DNA of 25,973 nt from a virus: positions 1 through 25,973 of IMG/VR virus record IMGVR_UViG_3300047277_000166. The stretch is one strand, 5' to 3'. The notes under the pieces were generated by a model, which was given only the letters and a program-made list of their open reading frames with translations, was not told where the DNA came from and did no database searches. Every line of letters begins with the position of its first letter. Within the stretch, counting starts at the first letter, position 1. Shown here in pieces: positions 5,979 to 24,450 of this stretch. A program made the position numbers and the translations under genes.

Positions 5979-8045
5979 TCAGGCTATCATAGAAATAAAA
6001 CGGTTTAATATAACTCTATTGGTTGTTCGTTTTGCAGCGAATTTAGCAAAGGAGCTAGCTATACCACGGGGTGTTGCTGTTTTCTTAAATGTAAAGTCTG
6101 TATCATTATTGGTATCTAGACTTTCGGATCGTAATAGGTAATATTCATCATAACCAGCATTATCAACAATTTTATAATTATTAACTCTAAATTCGGATTT
6201 AATCTTATCGAAGTTAATGGTGTCTTTAAACAGGTTGGTTAATTCTTGTTGTAGTTCACGTTTATTAATGATATAGAATCCCACGATATTACAATTGGTT
6301 ATTGATTTAAGCAATTTAAGATATGCTGCTGTAACTTCTCGCAAATCATAAATGTCTTTAATTTCTTCTTGGTGTTTTGATTTAGGATCACGGACAATCA
6401 AAGATTTGGATATACTTTTATAACTGCAATCATATTCCCGGTCGCCTGTTCCTAATCTGTCATTTAATCCATCTTTATAATATATTTGATTTGTTGTATC
6501 GGAAGAACCATCGGTAAGGAAGACAACATTAACATTTTGTAATTTATAATCACTTTTGAATTTAGGTAACAATTTCATAGCGACCATAATAGCAGCATTC
6601 AATGGAGTTGAACCTAAACGGAATGACCGAGGAGTTTCAAACTTATTGGTCGAAATTGACAGAAGTGATGTAGCTGCATAATTAAACTGTTTGGTTGTCA
6701 TTTTATTGGACAACAGATTAAGCATACTAACAAAATCAAATGCTTTTAGGTCCTGTTCTTTAAATGGTTGTTGATAACTTTTACTATACCTACTATACAT
6801 TGAAGTAAATGCATAGACTTCAAATGGTATATTAATTTGTTTACAGAACAGTACAAGGTTCAATAATTGTTTAACTGTATTATGTAGGTTATTTCTCATA
6901 GAACCGGACCAATCAAGGAACATAACAAGACCATGTGATTTACCACCAGGAATAACAGTAATTTTTCTAAATATATCTTCATTAAATTTATAGGAGAAAA
7001 TTGAATTCATATCAATTTCACCTGTTTTGGCTATTGAAGATCGTTTTAGTTGTTCAGCATTTTTCTTCAATTCAAATTCTTTAACGAGGTAATTAACTAC
7101 TTTTTTTGAATCGGTTCTAAAATTTTGAAACTCGGTTTTTTGTATGTCGGTGTTATAATCATAGCTATGAGGCCAAAAAGTTTTTGTCCATTCAGAATAT
7201 TCATCCCAAATTATATCATGGGGTACAATAATATCATTCAAATTGATATCAGGAATATTGCCGTAGAAATATTCTCTTTTATCATCCGCAAACAATTTAC
7301 TTTGATTTTTTTGAAATGTCTGGTCTGTTAATGATTCAACTTCATCATTCCCATCTTCACCATCCTTATCTCCACCTTCATCTTCCTCCCCAGATTCATC
7401 TTCTTCATATTCATCTTCTTCATATTCAAAATCGTCATCGAAATCTCCCCGACCTTCTTCGGAATCAGCATATTCTTGTTTTTCGTGCCGTTCCGCTTTA
7501 AGATATTCCATAACCTTTTTGGTGATCAATAACACATCATCAACGGTTTCGGAAACAGCAATTTCGTCTATGAGTTTTATTTCTATAGGATTGGTGAATG
7601 TTATTTTGCTATTAACACCTAATTTGAAGTATAAATTAGTTCTGTCGATAAAGTTAAGATCATTTAAATTTGTATCATTGGTACCAAAGAAATTCTTTTC
7701 AATAAGTTCCTTATAACCTTTGATGAATGGTTGTTTTAGACCAGGATATTTGGATTTAATTTTGCGTTCAATTCTAACATCTTCAATTGCATTTAGAACG
7801 GAATGTGTTAATTTTTGTTCATGTGCTTGTGATAACAATTCTTCGGGTGTAAATAATGCATGACCCACTTCATGACCCATAAACAGGTCATAAAGTTCGG
7901 GTGAAATAGCATTATCTAGTATTGGAAGTGTTAAAACTCTTGAGGTGACATCAAAGGAAGCAGTTCTTACTTTCCTTTGTTCTACGGTAATATTTTCTGT
8001 GGCCATAAGTTTGGCCAGTATTGATTTTGATTGTAATATTTCCAC
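5979..8045 (-). CDS. Zincin plus VWA-domain protein, CobT-like, 688 aa
   Basis: The N-terminus carries a zinc-peptidase motif GHEVGHALF (H58-E59-x-x-H62), with a downstream acidic helix NAIEDVRIERK (E88/D89) that could give a third ligand. Residues about 197-240 are an acidic low-complexity linker. The C-terminal half is a von Willebrand A domain: MIDAS D378-W-S380-G-S382, T480 in GSTPLN, and TDG at 511-513. Cobaltochelatase CobT and related chelatase/AAA+ adaptor proteins share the acidic linker plus C-terminal VWA plan, and T4-like phages often carry cobS/cobT-like genes of unclear role. No AAA+ partner lies in this window. The start is GTG at 8045, chosen because AAGAGGTG sits 5 bases upstream. 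First gene behind a consensus promoter. Confidence 0.8.
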   Translation of the reverse strand: MEILQSKSILAKLMATENITVEQRKVRTASFDVTSRVLTLPILDNAISPELYDLFMGHEVGHALFTPEELLSQAHEQKLTHSVLNAIEDVRIERKIKSKYPGLKQPFIKGYKELIEKNFFGTNDTNLNDLNFIDRTNLYFKLGVNSKITFTNPIEIKLIDEIAVSETVDDVLLITKKVMEYLKAERHEKQEYADSEEGRGDFDDDFEYEEDEYEEDESGEEDEGGDKDGEDGNDEVESLTDQTFQKNQSKLFADDKREYFYGNIPDINLNDIIVPHDIIWDEYSEWTKTFWPHSYDYNTDIQKTEFQNFRTDSKKVVNYLVKEFELKKNAEQLKRSSIAKTGEIDMNSIFSYKFNEDIFRKITVIPGGKSHGLVMFLDWSGSMRNNLHNTVKQLLNLVLFCKQINIPFEVYAFTSMYSRYSKSYQQPFKEQDLKAFDFVSMLNLLSNKMTTKQFNYAATSLLSISTNKFETPRSFRLGSTPLNAAIMVAMKLLPKFKSDYKLQNVNVVFLTDGSSDTTNQIYYKDGLNDRLGTGDREYDCSYKSISKSLIVRDPKSKHQEEIKDIYDLREVTAAYLKLLKSITNCNIVGFYIINKRELQQELTNLFKDTINFDKIKSEFRVNNYKIVDNAGYDEYYLLRSESLDTNNDTDFTFKKTATPRGIASSFAKFAAKRTTNRVILNRFISMIA

Positions 8046-17165: not shown

Positions 17166-17354
17166 CTAGTTTGGTTTACGGGTTAAAATTGGTGTGAGTA
17201 TTGGATTTCTTTTTTTCTTATTACCTATGCTGACTCCAGGCTCACCTTCTGGACCAACACCAAGACCCGCAACAACACCAGATCCAGCAGTATTACCGCC
17301 ATCTGCGGACATTGCTCCACCAATATCTTCAAAAAATTGTTTGAATGTTTTCAT
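17166..17354 (-). CDS. Small predicted internal head protein, 62 aa
   Basis: Begins MKTFKQFFEDIGG, which matches the T4 capsid targeting sequence type (MKTYQEFIAE) with Glu at residue 9. After a Gly/Ala-rich stretch (GAMSADGGNTAGSGVVAGLG) comes GPEGEPGVSIGNKKKRNPIL and a basic tail TPILTRKPN. The rest is disordered and basic at the end, as in packaged internal proteins that contact DNA. It resembles the last 54 residues of the 20768-22279 protein. The stop of the upstream 17351-17737 gene overlaps its ATG by 4 bases. Confidence 0.65.
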   Translation of the reverse strand: MKTFKQFFEDIGGAMSADGGNTAGSGVVAGLGVGPEGEPGVSIGNKKKRNPILTPILTRKPN

Positions 17355-17737
17355 AATTCTCTTAATTTATTAGCGACATTCATATCAATTAATATGTCAT
17401 CAGAATGTATGTTTTTACCATTAATGCCTGTAATAATATCAGGCATCATATTTAAGTATATTAAAAATGTTTTAAGTATACCATAATCATCAACATCAAA
17501 TTTAAAAAATAATATCTTTGTCGTTGGTTCTGGACCAAAAACATTACTTAGAAGAATTATATGGTTTAATATTAACCTTTCTTTTAAATCTTGTGTAATA
17601 TTATATTTACGAATTAATTTCTTAATGTATTTAGTTCGTCTAATATCTGCTTCAAATTCTGACATTATGCACCTAGGTGCTGAATAACACTTCAATGCAT
17701 AGACAAGAAAATTATCCTCAGTTAAATTAGAGATCAT
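17351..17737 (-). CDS. DUF7207-like conserved phage protein, 128 aa
   Basis: Starts MISNLTEDNFLVYALKCYSA, then PRCIMSEFEADIRRTKYIKK, LKERLILNHIILLSNVFGPE, and TKILFFKFDVDDYGILKTFL. The order FLxYAxKxY..P.C, FxxDxxRxKYIKKL, RLILNHIVLLxNVFGP and LFFK...LKTFLIYLN is, from memory, that of a conserved T4-like phage family (DUF7207) with no established function. The start codon lies in the loop of a 12-bp inverted repeat (17714-17760), and no normal ribosome binding site is visible. Confidence 0.8.
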   Translation of the reverse strand: MISNLTEDNFLVYALKCYSAPRCIMSEFEADIRRTKYIKKLIRKYNITQDLKERLILNHIILLSNVFGPEPTTKILFFKFDVDDYGILKTFLIYLNMMPDIITGINGKNIHSDDILIDMNVANKLREL

Positions 17738-18431: not shown

Positions 18432-19010
18432 CTATTTAGTTATTTTCTGTTTTTGGTTTAGTGTAGGAGTTAATCCATTTGTAACTTGCATATTAGGATT
18501 AAACTCCACATCATCTCTTTTTTCGCCGGTTAATGTAGTTCCCCCCTTTAAAACGGAACCAACATTAGGCTTATTATCACCGAAACTAGATTTTTCTGAG
18601 GTATTTACCAATTTAGGTTTTTTACCATAAACAGTAACATCCTTATCTTCAGCAACACCATGGTGTTTATAAATTGATTTGATTATTCTAGCTGATTTGG
18701 ATAATTGTTTTCCTCTAGAATTGGATTCAACTTCCATACCTACTGTTTGTGTTGCTGCTTTAGGGTCTTGAAATTTATCTTCCTCAAGAACATCCAAATC
18801 TTCAAGTTCAACGGATTCCATACCATGTGTCATTCTAGCTTTATCATAATGATCCCGTTTCCATTTGCTGAAATCACCAGTTTTTGAATGTGAAATCATT
18901 TGATTGCGAGAAACATATCTTGGATCCAGACCTTTTGACTTAAGATACTTCTGTAATGCTGGATGCATCACATTAGACCATTCTACCAAATCTTTAAATG
19001 TTTTTGACAT
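18432..19010 (-). CDS. Predicted internal head protein, 192 aa
   Basis: Begins MSKTFKDLVEWSNV: MSKTFKDLVE fits the capsid targeting type with L-V-E at residues 8-10, the T4 prohead protease pattern. A helical segment (HPALQKYLKSKGLDPRYVSR) and basic stretch (KWKRDHYDKARM) follow, then ESVELEDLDVLEED (about 66-79) with further Glu-containing cleavage-like sites. The C-terminal half is basic and disordered (KSARIIKSIYKHHGVAEDKD; KKPKLVNTSEKSS). Domain content and position between the Ig-like protein and the large internal protein fit a packaged DNA-associated protein. No enzyme motif is seen. The ribosome binding site is weak. Confidence 0.68.
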   Translation of the reverse strand: MSKTFKDLVEWSNVMHPALQKYLKSKGLDPRYVSRNQMISHSKTGDFSKWKRDHYDKARMTHGMESVELEDLDVLEEDKFQDPKAATQTVGMEVESNSRGKQLSKSARIIKSIYKHHGVAEDKDVTVYGKKPKLVNTSEKSSFGDNKPNVGSVLKGGTTLTGEKRDDVEFNPNMQVTNGLTPTLNQKQKITK

Positions 19011-19026
19011 ATTATTCTCAATATTC

Positions 19027-20766
19027 TTAGTTATGGTACATATTTAGTTCGTGATTATTTGCCAAATCATTACCACGATTATACACTTGGATATGTGCTA
19101 CTTTTTTAGAAGGCACACCATCTTTATGTAAAGGTATATGTAATGAAACAGTTTTGCCCTCAGATGGTTTTGATGGTCCAGCATTTACATGATGAAACCA
19201 ATCATCCGGATGAATGTCAAAACCTTGTTTATTCAAATGTTTCTCTGCATGCTGGACAGCTGAAGAATATGATGGATGATAAATTTGATAAGAATCTTTC
19301 TTAGCTTCATCTAATTCTTTTTTGGGTAATTTAGGAGATATCTTTCGGTTTTGTTCAAGTTTTGTATTTTCAGAAGCTTTCTTATAAATTCTATCCAAAA
19401 CAGCCATTGTAGATTTCTTACGATCAGAACGAACACTTTCACCCAATTCAAATTCTTCTTTGTGTGTAAGGTCTTTATCTAATTCATCATCATCTTCTTT
19501 AGGAGCTCTCTTTGATAATTTAGACATTTCTTTACTTGGGTCAGTTTTTCGGTCTGCTTTAATTGGCTTTGCTTTCATTCTAGCAAGTTCACGATCAGCA
19601 CGAGCAACATCAGGATCTTCATCATCATAAGACTCTTTAACTTTACCTCTGTTTTTTACTTCATGGGAAATAATTCTATCTTGAACTTTTTTAGTTTTAG
19701 TGTCAAAAATACTTTTAGGGTTTTTTGACCAATTTTTTAATTGATCATCACCCAAACCTCTAACTTGTTTTTTCAACTCTGTAGTAGTTCTACCATCTGA
19801 ATCCCAAACCTTTTCATCCAATTCAACTTCCTCTTTGCGATATTTGTCTAATATACCATCAGCAGCATCAGAATGTTGTTGAATCATATCTTGATGATGA
19901 CCTTTTATAATTGGACTTTTTGCTTTTTTATATTGATTAATATGATTTTGTTCCATTTTTTTATGGCCCAGATACGATTGCCGGTCTTTAGTATCCGCAA
20001 TGAGATTTTCAGGATTAGAGTCTTCTTCTAATTCAACTTCCTCATGAGCTTTGAGTTTCTTGAAAGTATGTTTGGCGATCTTCTTAATATTATCAACATG
20101 GTCAGAAAGACCATCTTCGTTGGTAACAAAAGGAACACTATCATCTTCTGGACGTTTACCTTCAGTAATTCCACCAACTATTTCAGTATAACAATCCATA
20201 GATAATGTTTTACCTGAAGCACTCAATTCAGTTAATTTTTCAGCAACTTTATGTAAATCCATATCTGATTTAGCATCTTCTTTTGAATATTCCATTATTC
20301 TAATTAACAGAGGAATGTCCATAGTTACTTTATCGACAGCATTTTCTTCATCTAGTTCAACCGATTCTGATGTTGAACGAGTTCTATTAATTGTATTCCA
20401 TTTGTTTATGGCTTTATCACTACCACCAAAACTTTTTCTAATTTTGTTAGATGTTTTATCATAGTCGGGATGTGATATTTTGTTTTCGATAGAATTGCGT
20501 AAAGCATCACGTTTCACAGCACTTCTATCGAGATATGATTTGATTGCGGGAGAGGTATCTAATATTTCATCAACTCTTTCAAGTTCTTCAGCATTTAATT
20601 CCACTTTGTATGCTGTATGTTCATTATCACCCGCAGCTGCTGGAATTTTAACACGACCAGCTAATGTATCAGTTGTTCTTTTTTTAACATTAAGTTTTTC
20701 ATCCAATTGAAGCACATTAGATACAGCATCAATAATTGACTGTGAGATAATATCTTTTGAAAACAT
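19027..20766 (-). CDS. Large predicted internal head protein with multiple protease-like sites, 579 aa
   Basis: Starts MFSKDIISQSIIDAVSNVLQ, chosen because GGTTAAATAAA precedes this ATG; a longer frame to 20814 overlaps the upstream gene without a ribosome binding site. Charged and mostly disordered. Six Glu-rich sites recur: LQLDE (19-23), SVELDEE (135-141), EVELEED (243-249), EVELDEK (313-319), EFELGES (438-444), KELDEAK (493-499). These fit [L/I]-x-E cleavage by a T4-type prohead protease and divide the chain into segments of about 50-120 residues. The last 80 residues (YSSAVQHAEKHLNKQGFDIH; SLHIPLHKDG; NHELNMYHN) look like a folded domain shared, as I recall, by other phage head-associated proteins. 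Confidence 0.7.
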   Translation of the reverse strand: MFSKDIISQSIIDAVSNVLQLDEKLNVKKRTTDTLAGRVKIPAAAGDNEHTAYKVELNAEELERVDEILDTSPAIKSYLDRSAVKRDALRNSIENKISHPDYDKTSNKIRKSFGGSDKAINKWNTINRTRSTSESVELDEENAVDKVTMDIPLLIRIMEYSKEDAKSDMDLHKVAEKLTELSASGKTLSMDCYTEIVGGITEGKRPEDDSVPFVTNEDGLSDHVDNIKKIAKHTFKKLKAHEEVELEEDSNPENLIADTKDRQSYLGHKKMEQNHINQYKKAKSPIIKGHHQDMIQQHSDAADGILDKYRKEEVELDEKVWDSDGRTTTELKKQVRGLGDDQLKNWSKNPKSIFDTKTKKVQDRIISHEVKNRGKVKESYDDEDPDVARADRELARMKAKPIKADRKTDPSKEMSKLSKRAPKEDDDELDKDLTHKEEFELGESVRSDRKKSTMAVLDRIYKKASENTKLEQNRKISPKLPKKELDEAKKDSYQIYHPSYSSAVQHAEKHLNKQGFDIHPDDWFHHVNAGPSKPSEGKTVSLHIPLHKDGVPSKKVAHIQVYNRGNDLANNHELNMYHN

Positions 20767-20767
20767 T

Positions 20768-22279
20768 TTATTTAACCTTTTTCTTTTTGTTGATTGTGAT
20801 ACCTGAAGTTCCAAATTTATCCATTGGAGTTACAAGTGGTTCCTTATTGGATGCTCCACCACATCCGCCAGATATTCCCATTTCATTATCATTGTCGTTG
20901 ATATCTTCTTTAAATGATCTAAATGATTTAAGTGTTGGTCGTTTTATTTCTCGTTCTTCAGAATATGATACATTACCCAAACCAGACATAGGATAAACAG
21001 TACCAGAACCTCTAGTTTCCAATTCAGGACCAACACCAGGAGTTTTTATTCTTCTTGACGGACTACTGATTGGTGTTAATTTATCATCATCAAACAACAA
21101 TTTTTTAGATTTGTTTAATGTTGGTTTAGAAACACTTTTAGCTATAGATTGTTCCAAGAACAATGTTGTGTGTTTATAGACATCATCAACACCTTCTTCT
21201 ATATATTCAACGACATCCGAATTATGGAACGATATATAATTATCAAACATTTCATAAAAAGCGTCAACATTCTTTAAAGAAGTATTCCATTTATCATATC
21301 GAACAGATTCAGCAACCATGCGTTTTAATGTTGAATTTCTTTGTTGACTAAATTCATTGGATGTTTCAACAAACACCATCATAGTCTCATATCCCAATTC
21401 TTCTAGTTCTTCTTTGATATATGATATGGTATCCAAATCAGTAGCAGAACCATTGATTATAATTGGTTGATGTGTACGAATTGATTCCATACGCAAATTA
21501 TTAGATTTGATAGATAATTTTTGTTTATCACCTAAAATATTAAGTATTTGTGTATAATTATGTTCAACAATTTTGGATTCAGCAATAGCTTCACGAATTA
21601 TCAAATCTTTGCCAGAACCAGGTCCACCAGTTACAAATATTGCTTTATATGAACCTCGATTATACTGTTCATTAATGCCCATTCCTTTACGAACATCGTG
21701 CATCAATGCTTTAGTTTGATGTTCTGACACGTGGCCCGGAACACCTTTTTTAAATGAGTTTATATCATTGTTTTTCGCATGTTCTCTCATTTTGGTACCA
21801 GACATACCTTCTGTACCCTCAGCGTCAGGATCACGTTGACCGGCACTATGTACTGTTATCTTCTTGAAATTGTATAAAGCACCTTCATGTGTACCATTAT
21901 ATTGATGTAATTTATCATGCATTTCTTTAACACGATCAGAACCAACAACCATATGTAAATGATCATGACCAGCTTTATGTAATTTTGCAGCTTGGTGCAA
22001 GAACGTTGGATGTTCTTTATTGGAAGCTTCTATATTAACACCAGGAGAATATTTCTTTATATGGTGAATTTTTTGATCAGCCGATAATGGATTCTTCTTA
22101 CTATCTTGTGAATGTGAAGTAACAACCACATGAGGAGCATTCAACTTTTCCGCTGTTGAACGAACCTTATCAATAAGTTTCAAATGACCCGTGGTTGGAG
22201 GATTCATCCTACCATAGGTCATAACTACTGGTTTGTGTGTTTCGTCTTTTTCTTTAACTGATTCTAAAAACGTTTTCAT
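20768..22279 (-). CDS. NMN-adenylyltransferase-like plus P-loop kinase-like fusion with capsid targeting leader, 503 aa
   Basis: Residues 1-10 (MKTFLESVKE) fit a capsid targeting leader. Residues 17-195 form a nucleotidyltransferase of the HxGH family: TYGRMNPPTTGH (G23 to H32), MVVGSDR (110-116) and GMSGTKMR (158-165), the ISGTxxR motif of NMN adenylyltransferases. A P-loop follows, VTGGPGSGKDLI (216-227), with a kinase-like region ending near 400. The order adenylyltransferase then kinase is that of NadR (NMN adenylyltransferase and nicotinamide riboside kinase). The last 54 residues are Gly-rich and basic and resemble the small protein at 17166-17354. Substrates are not proven: FAD synthetase or cytidylyltransferase activity is possible. 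Confidence 0.78.
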   Translation of the reverse strand: MKTFLESVKEKDETHKPVVMTYGRMNPPTTGHLKLIDKVRSTAEKLNAPHVVVTSHSQDSKKNPLSADQKIHHIKKYSPGVNIEASNKEHPTFLHQAAKLHKAGHDHLHMVVGSDRVKEMHDKLHQYNGTHEGALYNFKKITVHSAGQRDPDAEGTEGMSGTKMREHAKNNDINSFKKGVPGHVSEHQTKALMHDVRKGMGINEQYNRGSYKAIFVTGGPGSGKDLIIREAIAESKIVEHNYTQILNILGDKQKLSIKSNNLRMESIRTHQPIIINGSATDLDTISYIKEELEELGYETMMVFVETSNEFSQQRNSTLKRMVAESVRYDKWNTSLKNVDAFYEMFDNYISFHNSDVVEYIEEGVDDVYKHTTLFLEQSIAKSVSKPTLNKSKKLLFDDDKLTPISSPSRRIKTPGVGPELETRGSGTVYPMSGLGNVSYSEEREIKRPTLKSFRSFKEDINDNDNEMGISGGCGGASNKEPLVTPMDKFGTSGITINKKKKVK

Positions 22280-23247
22280 TAATCGCTATGTCCCAAAGTC
22301 TTCTTAAAAGCATGTAAGTGTTCATCTTTATCTAAATCGACAGAACTTTTATCTAATCCTTTAACACCATCTGGATGAAAAGCAACTGTTCTAGCACTTT
22401 TTTGTCCTTTTGCTTTTTCTCTGATTCTCCACTTACCCTTACCTGAAATTGCAGGTAAACCATGGCCAGTTTCATCTTTATCACCAACTCTATAAGTACC
22501 ATGGCCACCAACCTGTAATACATGTACATGGTGGTCTTTCAAATATGCGTGAGCTGGTTCTAGGTTTGGATGTTTTATCTCAAGTGTTTTTGCACGACCA
22601 GAAGCTGTAGCAGGTTCGGTTGTAGGATCAGGATGATGTTTATTCATGTGATCTAAAATACCGGACTTTTCAATGTGTTTAGCATATTCTGGTCTTTTTG
22701 ATCTTAGTGCATCTTTAATATGCCATCCTTTCTCATGCGTATGATGTATTGTTAATTGACCCATCGCAGCAGTAACACCATTTTTCGTTTCACCATTCAA
22801 TAGGTGTCCGGAAACGGTACCAGCATGAAAAACACCTTTCTTTTTATTTTCTACAGCAAAATCCGTACCACCCGTTGAACCCGCACCAGATAAATGTTTT
22901 GGCATGACACCATGTTTTTTTAATCTATCGACAAAGTTTGTTTCATATTCATGACCTTTGTTTTTAGGTTCGTCACCAGGTTTATGCAATTTTGAAATAG
23001 GAATTACATGATGGTTTCCAGTTTCATCTTCAGCATGAACATGTATTTTACCTTTAACGTTTTCGGTTTTGTGTATTTTTATAGCAGAACCTTTAGGTAA
23101 ATCATCATGTTCTTTAGCTAAAATGTGTGTTGGTTTATCAGAACCAACATGAGGATCAATATATTTTCTCTGATGTTCCTCACCCGTAGCACCAGACGCA
23201 GTTAATGTTCCTCGACCCTCAACAATATATGTACTAAACGTTTTCAT
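22279..23247 (-). CDS. Putative PD-(D/E)XK-type nuclease with capsid targeting leader, 322 aa
   Basis: Begins MKTFSTYIVE, with I-V-E at 8-10, then GRGTLTASGATGEEHQRKYI. Residues about 50-90 look like a small beta-barrel (GSAIKIHKTE; GKIHVHAEDETGNHHVIPIS). The middle part has the order GHEYE (E100/E102), GSTGGTDFAVENK (D129), LNGETKNG (E153-x-K155) and AAMGQLTI (Q164), matching the D...ExK...Q pattern of restriction-like nucleases and Holliday junction resolvases. The C-terminal half is His- and Lys-rich. His makes up about 10% of the protein. A 60-nt in-frame extension to 23307 runs back into the upstream gene; the ATG at 23247, one base after that gene's stop and behind AAAGGG, is preferred. 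Confidence 0.6.
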   Translation of the reverse strand: MKTFSTYIVEGRGTLTASGATGEEHQRKYIDPHVGSDKPTHILAKEHDDLPKGSAIKIHKTENVKGKIHVHAEDETGNHHVIPISKLHKPGDEPKNKGHEYETNFVDRLKKHGVMPKHLSGAGSTGGTDFAVENKKKGVFHAGTVSGHLLNGETKNGVTAAMGQLTIHHTHEKGWHIKDALRSKRPEYAKHIEKSGILDHMNKHHPDPTTEPATASGRAKTLEIKHPNLEPAHAYLKDHHVHVLQVGGHGTYRVGDKDETGHGLPAISGKGKWRIREKAKGQKSARTVAFHPDGVKGLDKSSVDLDKDEHLHAFKKTLGHSD

Positions 23248-23248
23248 T

Positions 23249-24397
23249 TTAACCCTTTCCAAATCTAGGATTGTTGAGGATAGCATTTGAAACTTTAACA
23301 GGTACAAGTTTAGTTGCTGGTCTCATGTGGCCAGTCTTCTCGTCTTTCTTCTGTAGTACAATACCTTCACCTTGTGACTTCTTTCCATCAATACTAGTTT
23401 CCATGTCAGGATGTTCTACACCCTTTAATACATGTTCTGTAGCTTGACCAAGGTGATGACGTATATCCAATGATCTTTGGAAATGATGTTGGTTTTTATC
23501 AACATGGTCGCTTAATGCTTTAAACTTTTCAATATGTTTAGCTTTTGCTGCATCAGTCTTCACTTTTGATGCTGATTTTTCACCTTCATCTTTCAGGTGT
23601 TGTTTATATCCCTCAACAGATGCTGTTTCACCACGTCTGGTAGTTCTATTATTGTAGATATTGAAGTGGCCACCTTTCTTAGCTTCAATATGTTCTGGTG
23701 TAAGGTGATCAGTTGTATGTCCTTTCATTAATGCTTTTGCTGCATTTATATGATGTTCGGTACCTGCCCTATCTTCTTTTGAGTATGTTGATGGTTTTGG
23801 TTTATATTCGTGTTCAGGCACAAAAACATTTGGACTATGTTTCAATGCATGTTTAGTTACACCATGAGCAACACCATGAGTAACTTCGGTATGAACTGCG
23901 ATACCAATTGGTGCTTTTGTTTTTGCTTTATATGTTATTCTATTAGGTGTTGTTGTGATATGTTCACCCGATTGGTGACCCGGTTCTTGAGGTGTGTGAA
24001 GCAAATCACCCTGAACATGATGACCTTTATTGACAAATTCGTGACCGTGTTTTAATAGATGTTTAAGTGCTTTTGCATATTCTGGTTGATGTCCGAAATG
24101 ATGATCAACTTCTTCAGGAGATCGTGCGACAACACCTCTAGCTATACGATGTTTATCAGATACACCAACACCATGTTCGTCATGTATAACATGTACAGAT
24201 GATCCACCGTCAGACTTTAATGAAGCTCCAACAGGACTAGATTGACCCATTCGTTTCTTGTGGAATTGATGTAATAGATCAACTGCTAAATGGGCATGTT
24301 TAGGGTCTTCATGGGGCACATCTTTTGTATGTGTTAAGTGACCTAGTTGATCTTCTTCGACCGAAGATTCTCGTAAAAATGTAGCAAATGTTTTCAT
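23249..24397 (-). CDS. DUF6267-like protein with DNA/RNA-ligase-type nucleotidyltransferase motifs and capsid targeting leader, 382 aa
   Basis: Begins MKTFATFLRE (L-R-E at 8-10), the capsid targeting pattern. Then GASLKSDGGSSVHV (K61-x-D63-G64) fits motif I of ATP-dependent ligases and capping enzymes, HHVQGDLLHT (127-136) fits motif III, GIAVHTEVTHG (165-175) follows as in DUF6267, GEGIVLQKKD (343-352) fits motif IV (EGxV), and ATKLVPVKV (K363) motif V. The set suggests covalent nucleotidyl transfer on Lys61, but the Arg of the usual KxDGxR is Ser here. About 11.5% His (44 of 382 by count). First gene behind the late promoter at 24443. Confidence 0.72.
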   Translation of the reverse strand: MKTFATFLRESSVEEDQLGHLTHTKDVPHEDPKHAHLAVDLLHQFHKKRMGQSSPVGASLKSDGGSSVHVIHDEHGVGVSDKHRIARGVVARSPEEVDHHFGHQPEYAKALKHLLKHGHEFVNKGHHVQGDLLHTPQEPGHQSGEHITTTPNRITYKAKTKAPIGIAVHTEVTHGVAHGVTKHALKHSPNVFVPEHEYKPKPSTYSKEDRAGTEHHINAAKALMKGHTTDHLTPEHIEAKKGGHFNIYNNRTTRRGETASVEGYKQHLKDEGEKSASKVKTDAAKAKHIEKFKALSDHVDKNQHHFQRSLDIRHHLGQATEHVLKGVEHPDMETSIDGKKSQGEGIVLQKKDEKTGHMRPATKLVPVKVSNAILNNPRFGKG

Positions 24398-24442: not shown

Positions 24443-24450
24443 TATTTATA
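24443..24450 (-). promoter_or_regulatory. Late promoter, T4-type TATAAATA
   Basis: Exact TATAAATA on the minus strand, 46 bp before the ATG at 24397 and outside any gene. In T4 this octamer is read by gp55-bound polymerase. It would drive the packaged-protein genes from 24397 downward. Confidence 0.75.

Follow-up and report, generated by a model that had tools for sequence, protein, structure and literature searches.

A modular chain with predicted prohead-protease joints as a candidate internal-head precursor of a T4-type phage

Capsid-targeting sequences of phage T4, and their removal, have been described (PMC9026906). The T4 internal proteins IPI, IPII, IPIII and Alt (PMC9026906, PMC3012670) are proteins of a T4-type head in which a short N-terminal peptide ending in (L/I)xE is kept while the mature part differs from phage to phage; each gives one mature product upon removal of one targeting peptide, with an additional C-terminal cut in the case of Alt. 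For T4 gp67 and gp22 (3.9-kDa and 2.5-kDa fragments; PMC9026906, Table 1), one precursor receives several LxE cuts and the peptides are kept in the head. The ejection proteins of SPN3US/phiKZ-type phages (PMC10052503) are cut after Glu, several times per precursor, by a protease of a related family, which thereby strips off long N-terminal propeptides. Polyvalent proteins of phages and conjugative elements (PMC5512222) consist of many shuffling modules, including recognised enzyme domains and often a metallopeptidase domain of their own, and are thought to be delivered with the DNA.

Here we describe a gene that shares features with each of these systems. The window (the whole stretch of DNA analysed, 25,973 nucleotides of the IMG/VR virus record IMGVR_UViG_3300047277_000166) includes, at 19027..20766 on the minus strand, a gene for a 579-residue chain of small modules (beads) separated by [L/I/V]xE joints. 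As in internal head proteins, its N-terminal peptide (MFxKxxxSQSxIDAV...) is kept in positional orthologues while different beads follow behind it. In contrast to a T4 internal protein with its single mature product, the chain has nine joints and is predicted to yield about nine mature pieces. It resembles gp67 and gp22 in that relatives of the chain are located at the gp67/68 position, bead F occurs behind gp67-like domains, and EEVELDE is found in gp22; unlike them, the window gene lies beside a cytidylyltransferase gene, outside the head cluster, and its beads differ from one another, can be exchanged and are in part folded. Whereas the SPN3US/phiKZ cuts remove a propeptide, the predicted sites occur along the full length of the chain, between conserved beads. 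Compared with polyvalent proteins, the beads are small and mostly unknown, and the joints are of prohead-protease type; no polyvalent-type effector or MPTase domain was found in the 579-aa chain by Pfam or PHROG. The chain varies a known theme, that of the T4 internal proteins and peptides. The literature searched contained no account of such chains, but subscription papers were mostly outside its coverage, so this is a weak sign of novelty.

The sequence-only reading of this DNA had proposed a prohead-protease precursor of several packaged peptides, and the comparisons below support this reading at the level of sequence. In our judgement a T4-type phage probably uses the chain as a modular internal-head precursor, which would be targeted to the core and cut by a gp21-type protease, the pieces being released in the head.

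The 579-residue chain and its candidate cut sites

The coordinates 19027-20766 given by the sequence-only reading were correct, but the strand is minus: the plus-strand frame across this interval is full of stops, while the minus strand is open for 579 aa, with the start ATG at 20766-20764 and the stop at 19027. A TTG located 16 codons further upstream could also serve as start, but two syntenic relatives, L165 and L291, begin with the ATG form of the peptide (MFxK..SQSxIDAV) common to all three chains, which makes this unlikely. The chain gave no match against PHROG and Pfam, and no close DNA relative of the window was detected in the phage collection searched.

All six motifs listed by that reading, LQLDE, SVELDEE, EVELEED, EVELDEK, EFELGES and KELDEAK, are present, with P1 Glu at residues 23, 140, 248, 318, 443 and 487; the intervals are 117, 108, 70, 125 and 44 residues, where that reading had given about 55-125. 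The plain [L/I]xE count was dropped as evidence, as the chain has 9 against 6.4 in shuffled sequences (P 0.18), not above chance. The extended forms behave differently: E[LI]xE occurs 5 times against 0.55 expected and [VF]E[LI]xE 4 times against 0.03, neither number being reached in any of 5000 shuffles, and E[VF]ELxE occurs 3 times against 0.0016 (5000 shuffles). An origin by chance, from the composition of an E- and L-rich disordered protein, agrees with the bare count, but the extended context, the conservation of sites at bead borders across phages and the linker in gp22 speak against it, and the bead H junction counts and the comparison with L291 (below) contradict it; we give this explanation practically no weight.

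Three more sites, VDE67, ITE202 and VKE378, are backed by relatives. In contrast, IME159, VAE176 and LTE180 are probably not cut sites, because they fall within predicted helices of the folded bead B at pLDDT above 90. By sequence, one chain thus carries several sites of prohead-protease type. The window linkers share the theme GAAGTTGAATTRGATGAA but differ in DNA, and the P1' residues at the joints (K, I, E, G, D, K, S, S and A) are less uniform than in marine chains.

The sites divide the chain as follows, all coordinates being on the minus strand. The targeting-like N-terminal peptide MFSKDIISQSIIDAVSNVLQLDE| (20698..20766) ends at the site E23. Bead A1 (residues 24-67; 20566..20697) ends in VDE67|I, the same joint being EVELDE|V in L291 and GLDE|V in L165, and the helical bead A2 (residues 68-140; 20347..20565) ends in ESVELDE140|E, exactly where L165 has an extra bead. 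The folded, helical bead B (residues 141-202; 20161..20346) ends in ITE202|G, for which L165 has IKE. Bead C (residues 203-248; 20023..20160) starts with GKRPEDDSVPFVTNE and ends in EEVELEE248|D; the same start stands behind a different bead in L165, and the end is followed by bead G in L291. Bead D (residues 249-318; 19813..20022), with a long helix, ends in EEVELDE318|K and has no relative among the fetched loci. Bead E (residues 319-378; 19633..19812), for which a close relative was sought and none found, ends in VKE378|S; its borders follow the sites and the position of bead F in L291, which places the E/F boundary at VKE378|S. Bead F (residues 379-443; 19438..19632) begins with the acidic stretch SYDDEDPDVARADREL... 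and ends in EEFELGE443|S; it is also found behind gp67-like N-terminal domains in three loci (L166-L168). Bead G (residues 444-487; 19306..19437) ends in KKELDE487|A and also occurs in L087, and the C-terminal bead H (residues 488-579; 19030..19305) is an alpha-alpha-beta-beta-beta domain.

The structure of the whole 579-aa chain was predicted with AlphaFold2. The chain had been described as disordered, which fits only a part of it: 245 of the 579 residues reached a pLDDT of at least 70, and the remainder stayed below 70. The model shows a helix at residues 4-19, helical segments in A2, a confidently predicted bead B (pLDDT 91-98 over residues 141-200), one long helix within D, and helices and strands in H, with low confidence at residues 26-53 and over most of F. 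Two or more beads are thus predicted to fold; bead H modelled alone gave a pLDDT of 75. Most sites lie in loops, at the ends of structural elements or in low-confidence stretches, and those at residues 443 and 487 fall within low-confidence helices. A search for solved structures resembling bead H or the whole-chain model gave nothing significant.

Exchange of beads between chains

L165 and L291 are syntenic with the window; identity between L291 and the window is 71% for the enzyme fusion upstream and 69% for the gene downstream. The chains nevertheless differ by whole beads lost, gained or reordered at E| positions: the window order is targeting peptide-A1-A2-B-C-D-E-F-G-H, while that of L291 is targeting peptide-A1-A2-F-(others)-C-G. 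Bead F is preceded by VKE| in the window and by DLDE| in L291, bead G by EFELGE| and EVELDE|, respectively. In L165 there are two additional beads, one separating A2 from B and the other separating B from C; each has Glu at its borders, although the entry to C in this chain, LKVE|G, is only half a match to [LIVM]xE. In L211, a similar targeting peptide is followed by extra beads and then by A1 behind QIDE|K. Thus [LIVM]xE persists at homologous joints while the flanks and the adjoining bead change. The sequence-only reading would have been contradicted by conserved flanks around unconserved sites; the comparison of the window with L165, L291 and L211 gave the opposite.

Beads are also distributed far beyond this lineage. 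Residues 482-577 match the cultured Methylophilales phage Melnitz, in which bead H belongs to a chain (locus tag Melnitz3EXVC039M_20), and residues 129-197 match a 735-kb uncultured phage; in IMG/VR, at least 212 relatives of bead H and at least 391 of bead B were found. Counts of relatives are lower bounds or the best 80, after simple dereplication, and the relatives are mostly metagenomic contigs. Proteins carrying bead H range from 97 aa (L152, nearly the bead alone) to 1342 aa (L113), and the bead may take any position. Directly upstream of it, [LIVM]xE was found in 46 of 48 distinct instances, compared with 20% at random positions, and P1' is Ala or Gly in 38 of these 46; both exceptions belong to proteins with a different N-terminus. 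Another site follows within 14 residues downstream in 35 of the 40 internal instances. In a clustering of the segments, bead H has 16 distinct neighbours to its left and 12 to its right. When 93 non-redundant chains, each with at least three sites, were surveyed, they yielded 515 segments (median 86 aa) and 21 bead families present in at least three proteins; of these families, 16 have more than one kind of neighbour on either side. As judged from these sequences, the chains are modular and the sites are conserved at the joints.

The comparison of alignment (HSP) borders with masked sites was dropped, since masking itself breaks alignments. With random masks as the control, the ratio of edges to read-through was 6801:2682 at real sites and about 2200-2970:4140-4470 at random masks. 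Unmasked, 0.43 of the HSP borders lie near a site, compared with 0.31.

Several further observations concern individual beads. In the 735-kb phage (LR756501; L004 7338-8219), a 293-aa ORF ends in bead B, which directly follows ILNE|S, and the same phage has a weak gp21 relative, so that bead B and the LxE joint reach very large phages. Free-standing genes for bead B, of 77-86 aa, occur in L035, L061, L068, L081 and others, and are candidates for a small protein family without a name. DUF5824 is found as a bead of a chain, and likewise within the C-terminal half of the Melnitz cytidylyltransferase (L139 4149-6173, L003 8830-10782). A recurrent bead of the chains in L127, L139 and L181, DxDNDGDxDxSDxYLHKRRKAISKA, is suggestive of a calcium-binding motif of dockerin or EF-hand-like type.

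Neighbouring genes, head genes and the protease

The chain gene is flanked upstream by a cytidylyltransferase-kinase fusion gene (20768..22279, minus strand), in which the two enzymes meet at GMGINE204|Q (P1 codon 21668-21670); the kinase part is a P-loop kinase-like domain. This joint is [LIM]xE in 32 of 34 distinct loci, the two exceptions being without the cytidylyltransferase part. L165 has the kinase as a separate protein, preceded by a short peptide of its own, MRTYKELVQVLE|. The fused enzymes also seem to behave as beads. The syntenic gene downstream (18432..19010, minus strand) starts with the targeting-peptide-like MSKTFKDLVE|W. Beyond the fusion, the gene at 22279..23247 (minus strand) starts with MKTFSTYIVE|G, like a T4 internal-protein targeting peptide, and the DUF6267 gene opening the cluster (23249..24397, minus strand) with the targeting-peptide-like MKTFATFLRE|S. 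By eye, these starts, MKTF..xE and MSKTF..VE, resemble T4 targeting peptides; the chain's own peptide, MFSKDIISQS..., is a different sequence. A T4 late-promoter-like TATAAATA (24443-24450, minus strand) lies 46 bases ahead of the DUF6267 gene, the motif being present in the window at chance level (4 against 4.8 expected). Elsewhere in the window, a 688-aa protein with an acidic stretch (5979-8045) is similar to the PHROG 'peptidase' family phrog_459 and to a cobalamin biosynthesis family, with no match in Pfam.

A comparable arrangement is found in the T4-like cyanophage S-CREM2, for which Table 3 of PMC10665884 lists the cytidylyltransferase gp154 and its neighbours gp155, gp156 and gp160 among the proteins detected by mass spectrometry in purified virions. 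In the public record, gp154 starts with MKNFSSFLTE| and gp155 with MSRFEEL...INLRE|, and gp160 is itself an LxE-jointed chain. As in the window, these genes are beside the cytidylyltransferase and have N-termini ending in LxE; gp160 has no bead directly in common with the window chain, however, and is not called a polyprotein by its authors. The last two beads of gp160 are 72% and 58% identical to beads of L185, where they are joined by EEVELDE in the opposite order, and one of the two is fused to bead B in L022 and L023. The adjoining gp159 is homologous to window 17351-17737 (34%, E 4e-22). The kinship in design with a virion-detected protein is apparent from the sequences, and since gp160 is on that table's list, a protein of bead-chain design occurs in virions. 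This is indirect support for the window chain, bearing on presence and not on cutting.

The 21-nt linker GAAGAAGTTGAACTTGATGAA was found in at least 120 IMG/VR stretches, and all 134 of the matches listed are in frame, reading EEVELDE. Four carriers among these listed matches are the gp22 scaffold (PHROG head scaffolding; Pfam T4_CASP for the one scanned); at the other linker loci listed, gp20 or gp21 is nearby about 20 times and cytidylyltransferase 41 times. In two loci (L120 and L124) the gene order is gp20, bead-H chain, gp21, gp22 and gp23, and in L002 a 222-aa ORF with bead H is likewise placed, its N-terminus matching the prohead family phrog_1064. The gp20-gp21 interval in T4 is that of gp67 and gp68. 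The window gene adjoins the cytidylyltransferase gene and lies outside this interval, but relatives sharing bead H do sit there, so that beads are shared, by sequence comparison, with proteins at the gp67 position.

This position raises the alternative of a disposable scaffold, that is, a prohead-core protein like gp67, gp68 or gp22 that gp21 would chop so as to let the core exit the head, leaving pieces without a later job. Bead F is also present in gp67-like proteins, and in T4 most of the gp22 and gp68 disappears during maturation (PMC9026906, Table 1), both in line with such a role. Several beads, however, are conserved domains for which free-standing genes (77 aa and 97 aa) and fusions to enzymes occur as well, a bead-sharing chain is retained in the S-CREM2 virions according to the table cited above (PMC10665884), and a scaffold alone leaves the swapping of unrelated beads unexplained. 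We consider the scaffold unlikely, though the best placed of the alternatives.

The genes for gp20, gp21, gp22 and gp23 are absent from the 26-kb window, and the protease of this phage was inferred from relatives because the window is a fragment without gp21. Of 11 large chain-bearing contigs, 10 encode a homologue of gp21 (E below 1e-90), as does Melnitz. In the gp22 of L176, EEVELDE| stands ahead of the last 25 residues, and in T4 gp22, FVTE|A stands ahead of the last 24; by this comparison, EEVELDE is at the position of the last cut of T4 gp22. A 2.5-kDa gp22 fragment is found in T4 heads (PMC9026906, Table 1), and may be the C-terminal peptide after FVTE|. In the chain-bearing contigs, nearly all gp23 maturation sites have the form LxE|A/S/T (LLAE|S, LLGE|A, LTE|A and the like), and one would therefore expect their protease to cleave behind LxE when a small residue follows. 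The link of the chain to the head and its protease is therefore independent of the motif count, as it comes from gene position, the linker in gp22, the gp23 sites and the virion-detected relative.

Cleavage at the joints is a prediction from sequence, and the conserved EEVELDE is longer than the LxE that a T4-type protease needs; both are compatible with an uncut multidomain head protein in which EEVELDE is a docking motif (for example, for scaffold binding) or a flexible linker. It is the LxE core, however, that divergent joints keep, and the joint between the two enzymes described above keeps only [LIM]xE. Moreover, EEVELDE replaces a gp21-type cut position in gp22 of phages whose gp23 sites are LxE followed by a small residue. 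An uncut protein is accordingly rated as improbable, somewhat below the scaffold.

In the linker, codon agreement between loci is 0.84 against 0.53 expected from codon usage (ratio 1.57), compared with 1.09-1.26 times expectation for peptides inside beads, and comparison within chains gives the same pattern. This excess fits exchange through the linker, but common descent of the linkers can mimic it. Were the linkers mainly recombination seams at the DNA level, or scars of gene shuffling, with an incidental protease role, the codon excess would be accounted for; such a seam alone, however, would require neither P1 Glu nor a small P1' residue, and linkers of the window lineage differ in DNA while LxE is kept. 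We regard this last alternative as very unlikely.

Proposed course of events and its meaning

For the internal-head precursor, the following course may be proposed. The N-terminal helix would act like a T4 capsid-targeting sequence, by analogy with T4 (PMC9026906), bringing the chain into the prohead core. A gp21-type protease would then cut after [L/I/V]-x-E at the joints, as the identity of the sites suggests, and about nine to ten pieces, small proteins or peptides, would be released inside the head. At least some of these may stay with the DNA, as suggested by S-CREM2 gp160 and the T4 analogy, and might enter the host; packaging of the window protein, its ejection and the functions of the beads are inferred. 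Gain, loss and reordering of beads by recombination would leave targeting and processing undisturbed. The beads appear to be exchangeable in this way because all joints carry one protein motif, and almost identical DNA in related marine phages. As relatives carry, lose and reorder beads at the predicted sites, the data suggest that a single gene supplies the head with small proteins, and that this set is exchangeable.

A wider generalisation, which we hold tentatively and at slightly less than an even chance, is an open-ended cassette system in T4-like phages, in which the linker would be both a prohead-protease site and a recombination seam. Small internal-head proteins, some fused to enzymes or to gp22, could then be arranged in any order behind one targeting peptide, co-packaged at a fixed ratio, cut in the head and injected, and the set would be retooled by bead exchange. 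For the precursor proposed above, the advantages would be the use of one targeting peptide for many cargoes, a fixed ratio between them and easy exchange.

Phages of this kind are common among environmental viral contigs, and most of the proteins that may be injected from their heads lack annotation. Provided that the chains are cut, the rule of [L/I/V]xE joints behind a targeting peptide would turn hundreds of 'hypothetical proteins' into defined and testable head or injection proteins. The exact new protein ends are then predicted, and can be searched for in existing mass-spectrometry data. Cutting would also provide a mechanism for the fast evolution of the set of head and injection proteins.
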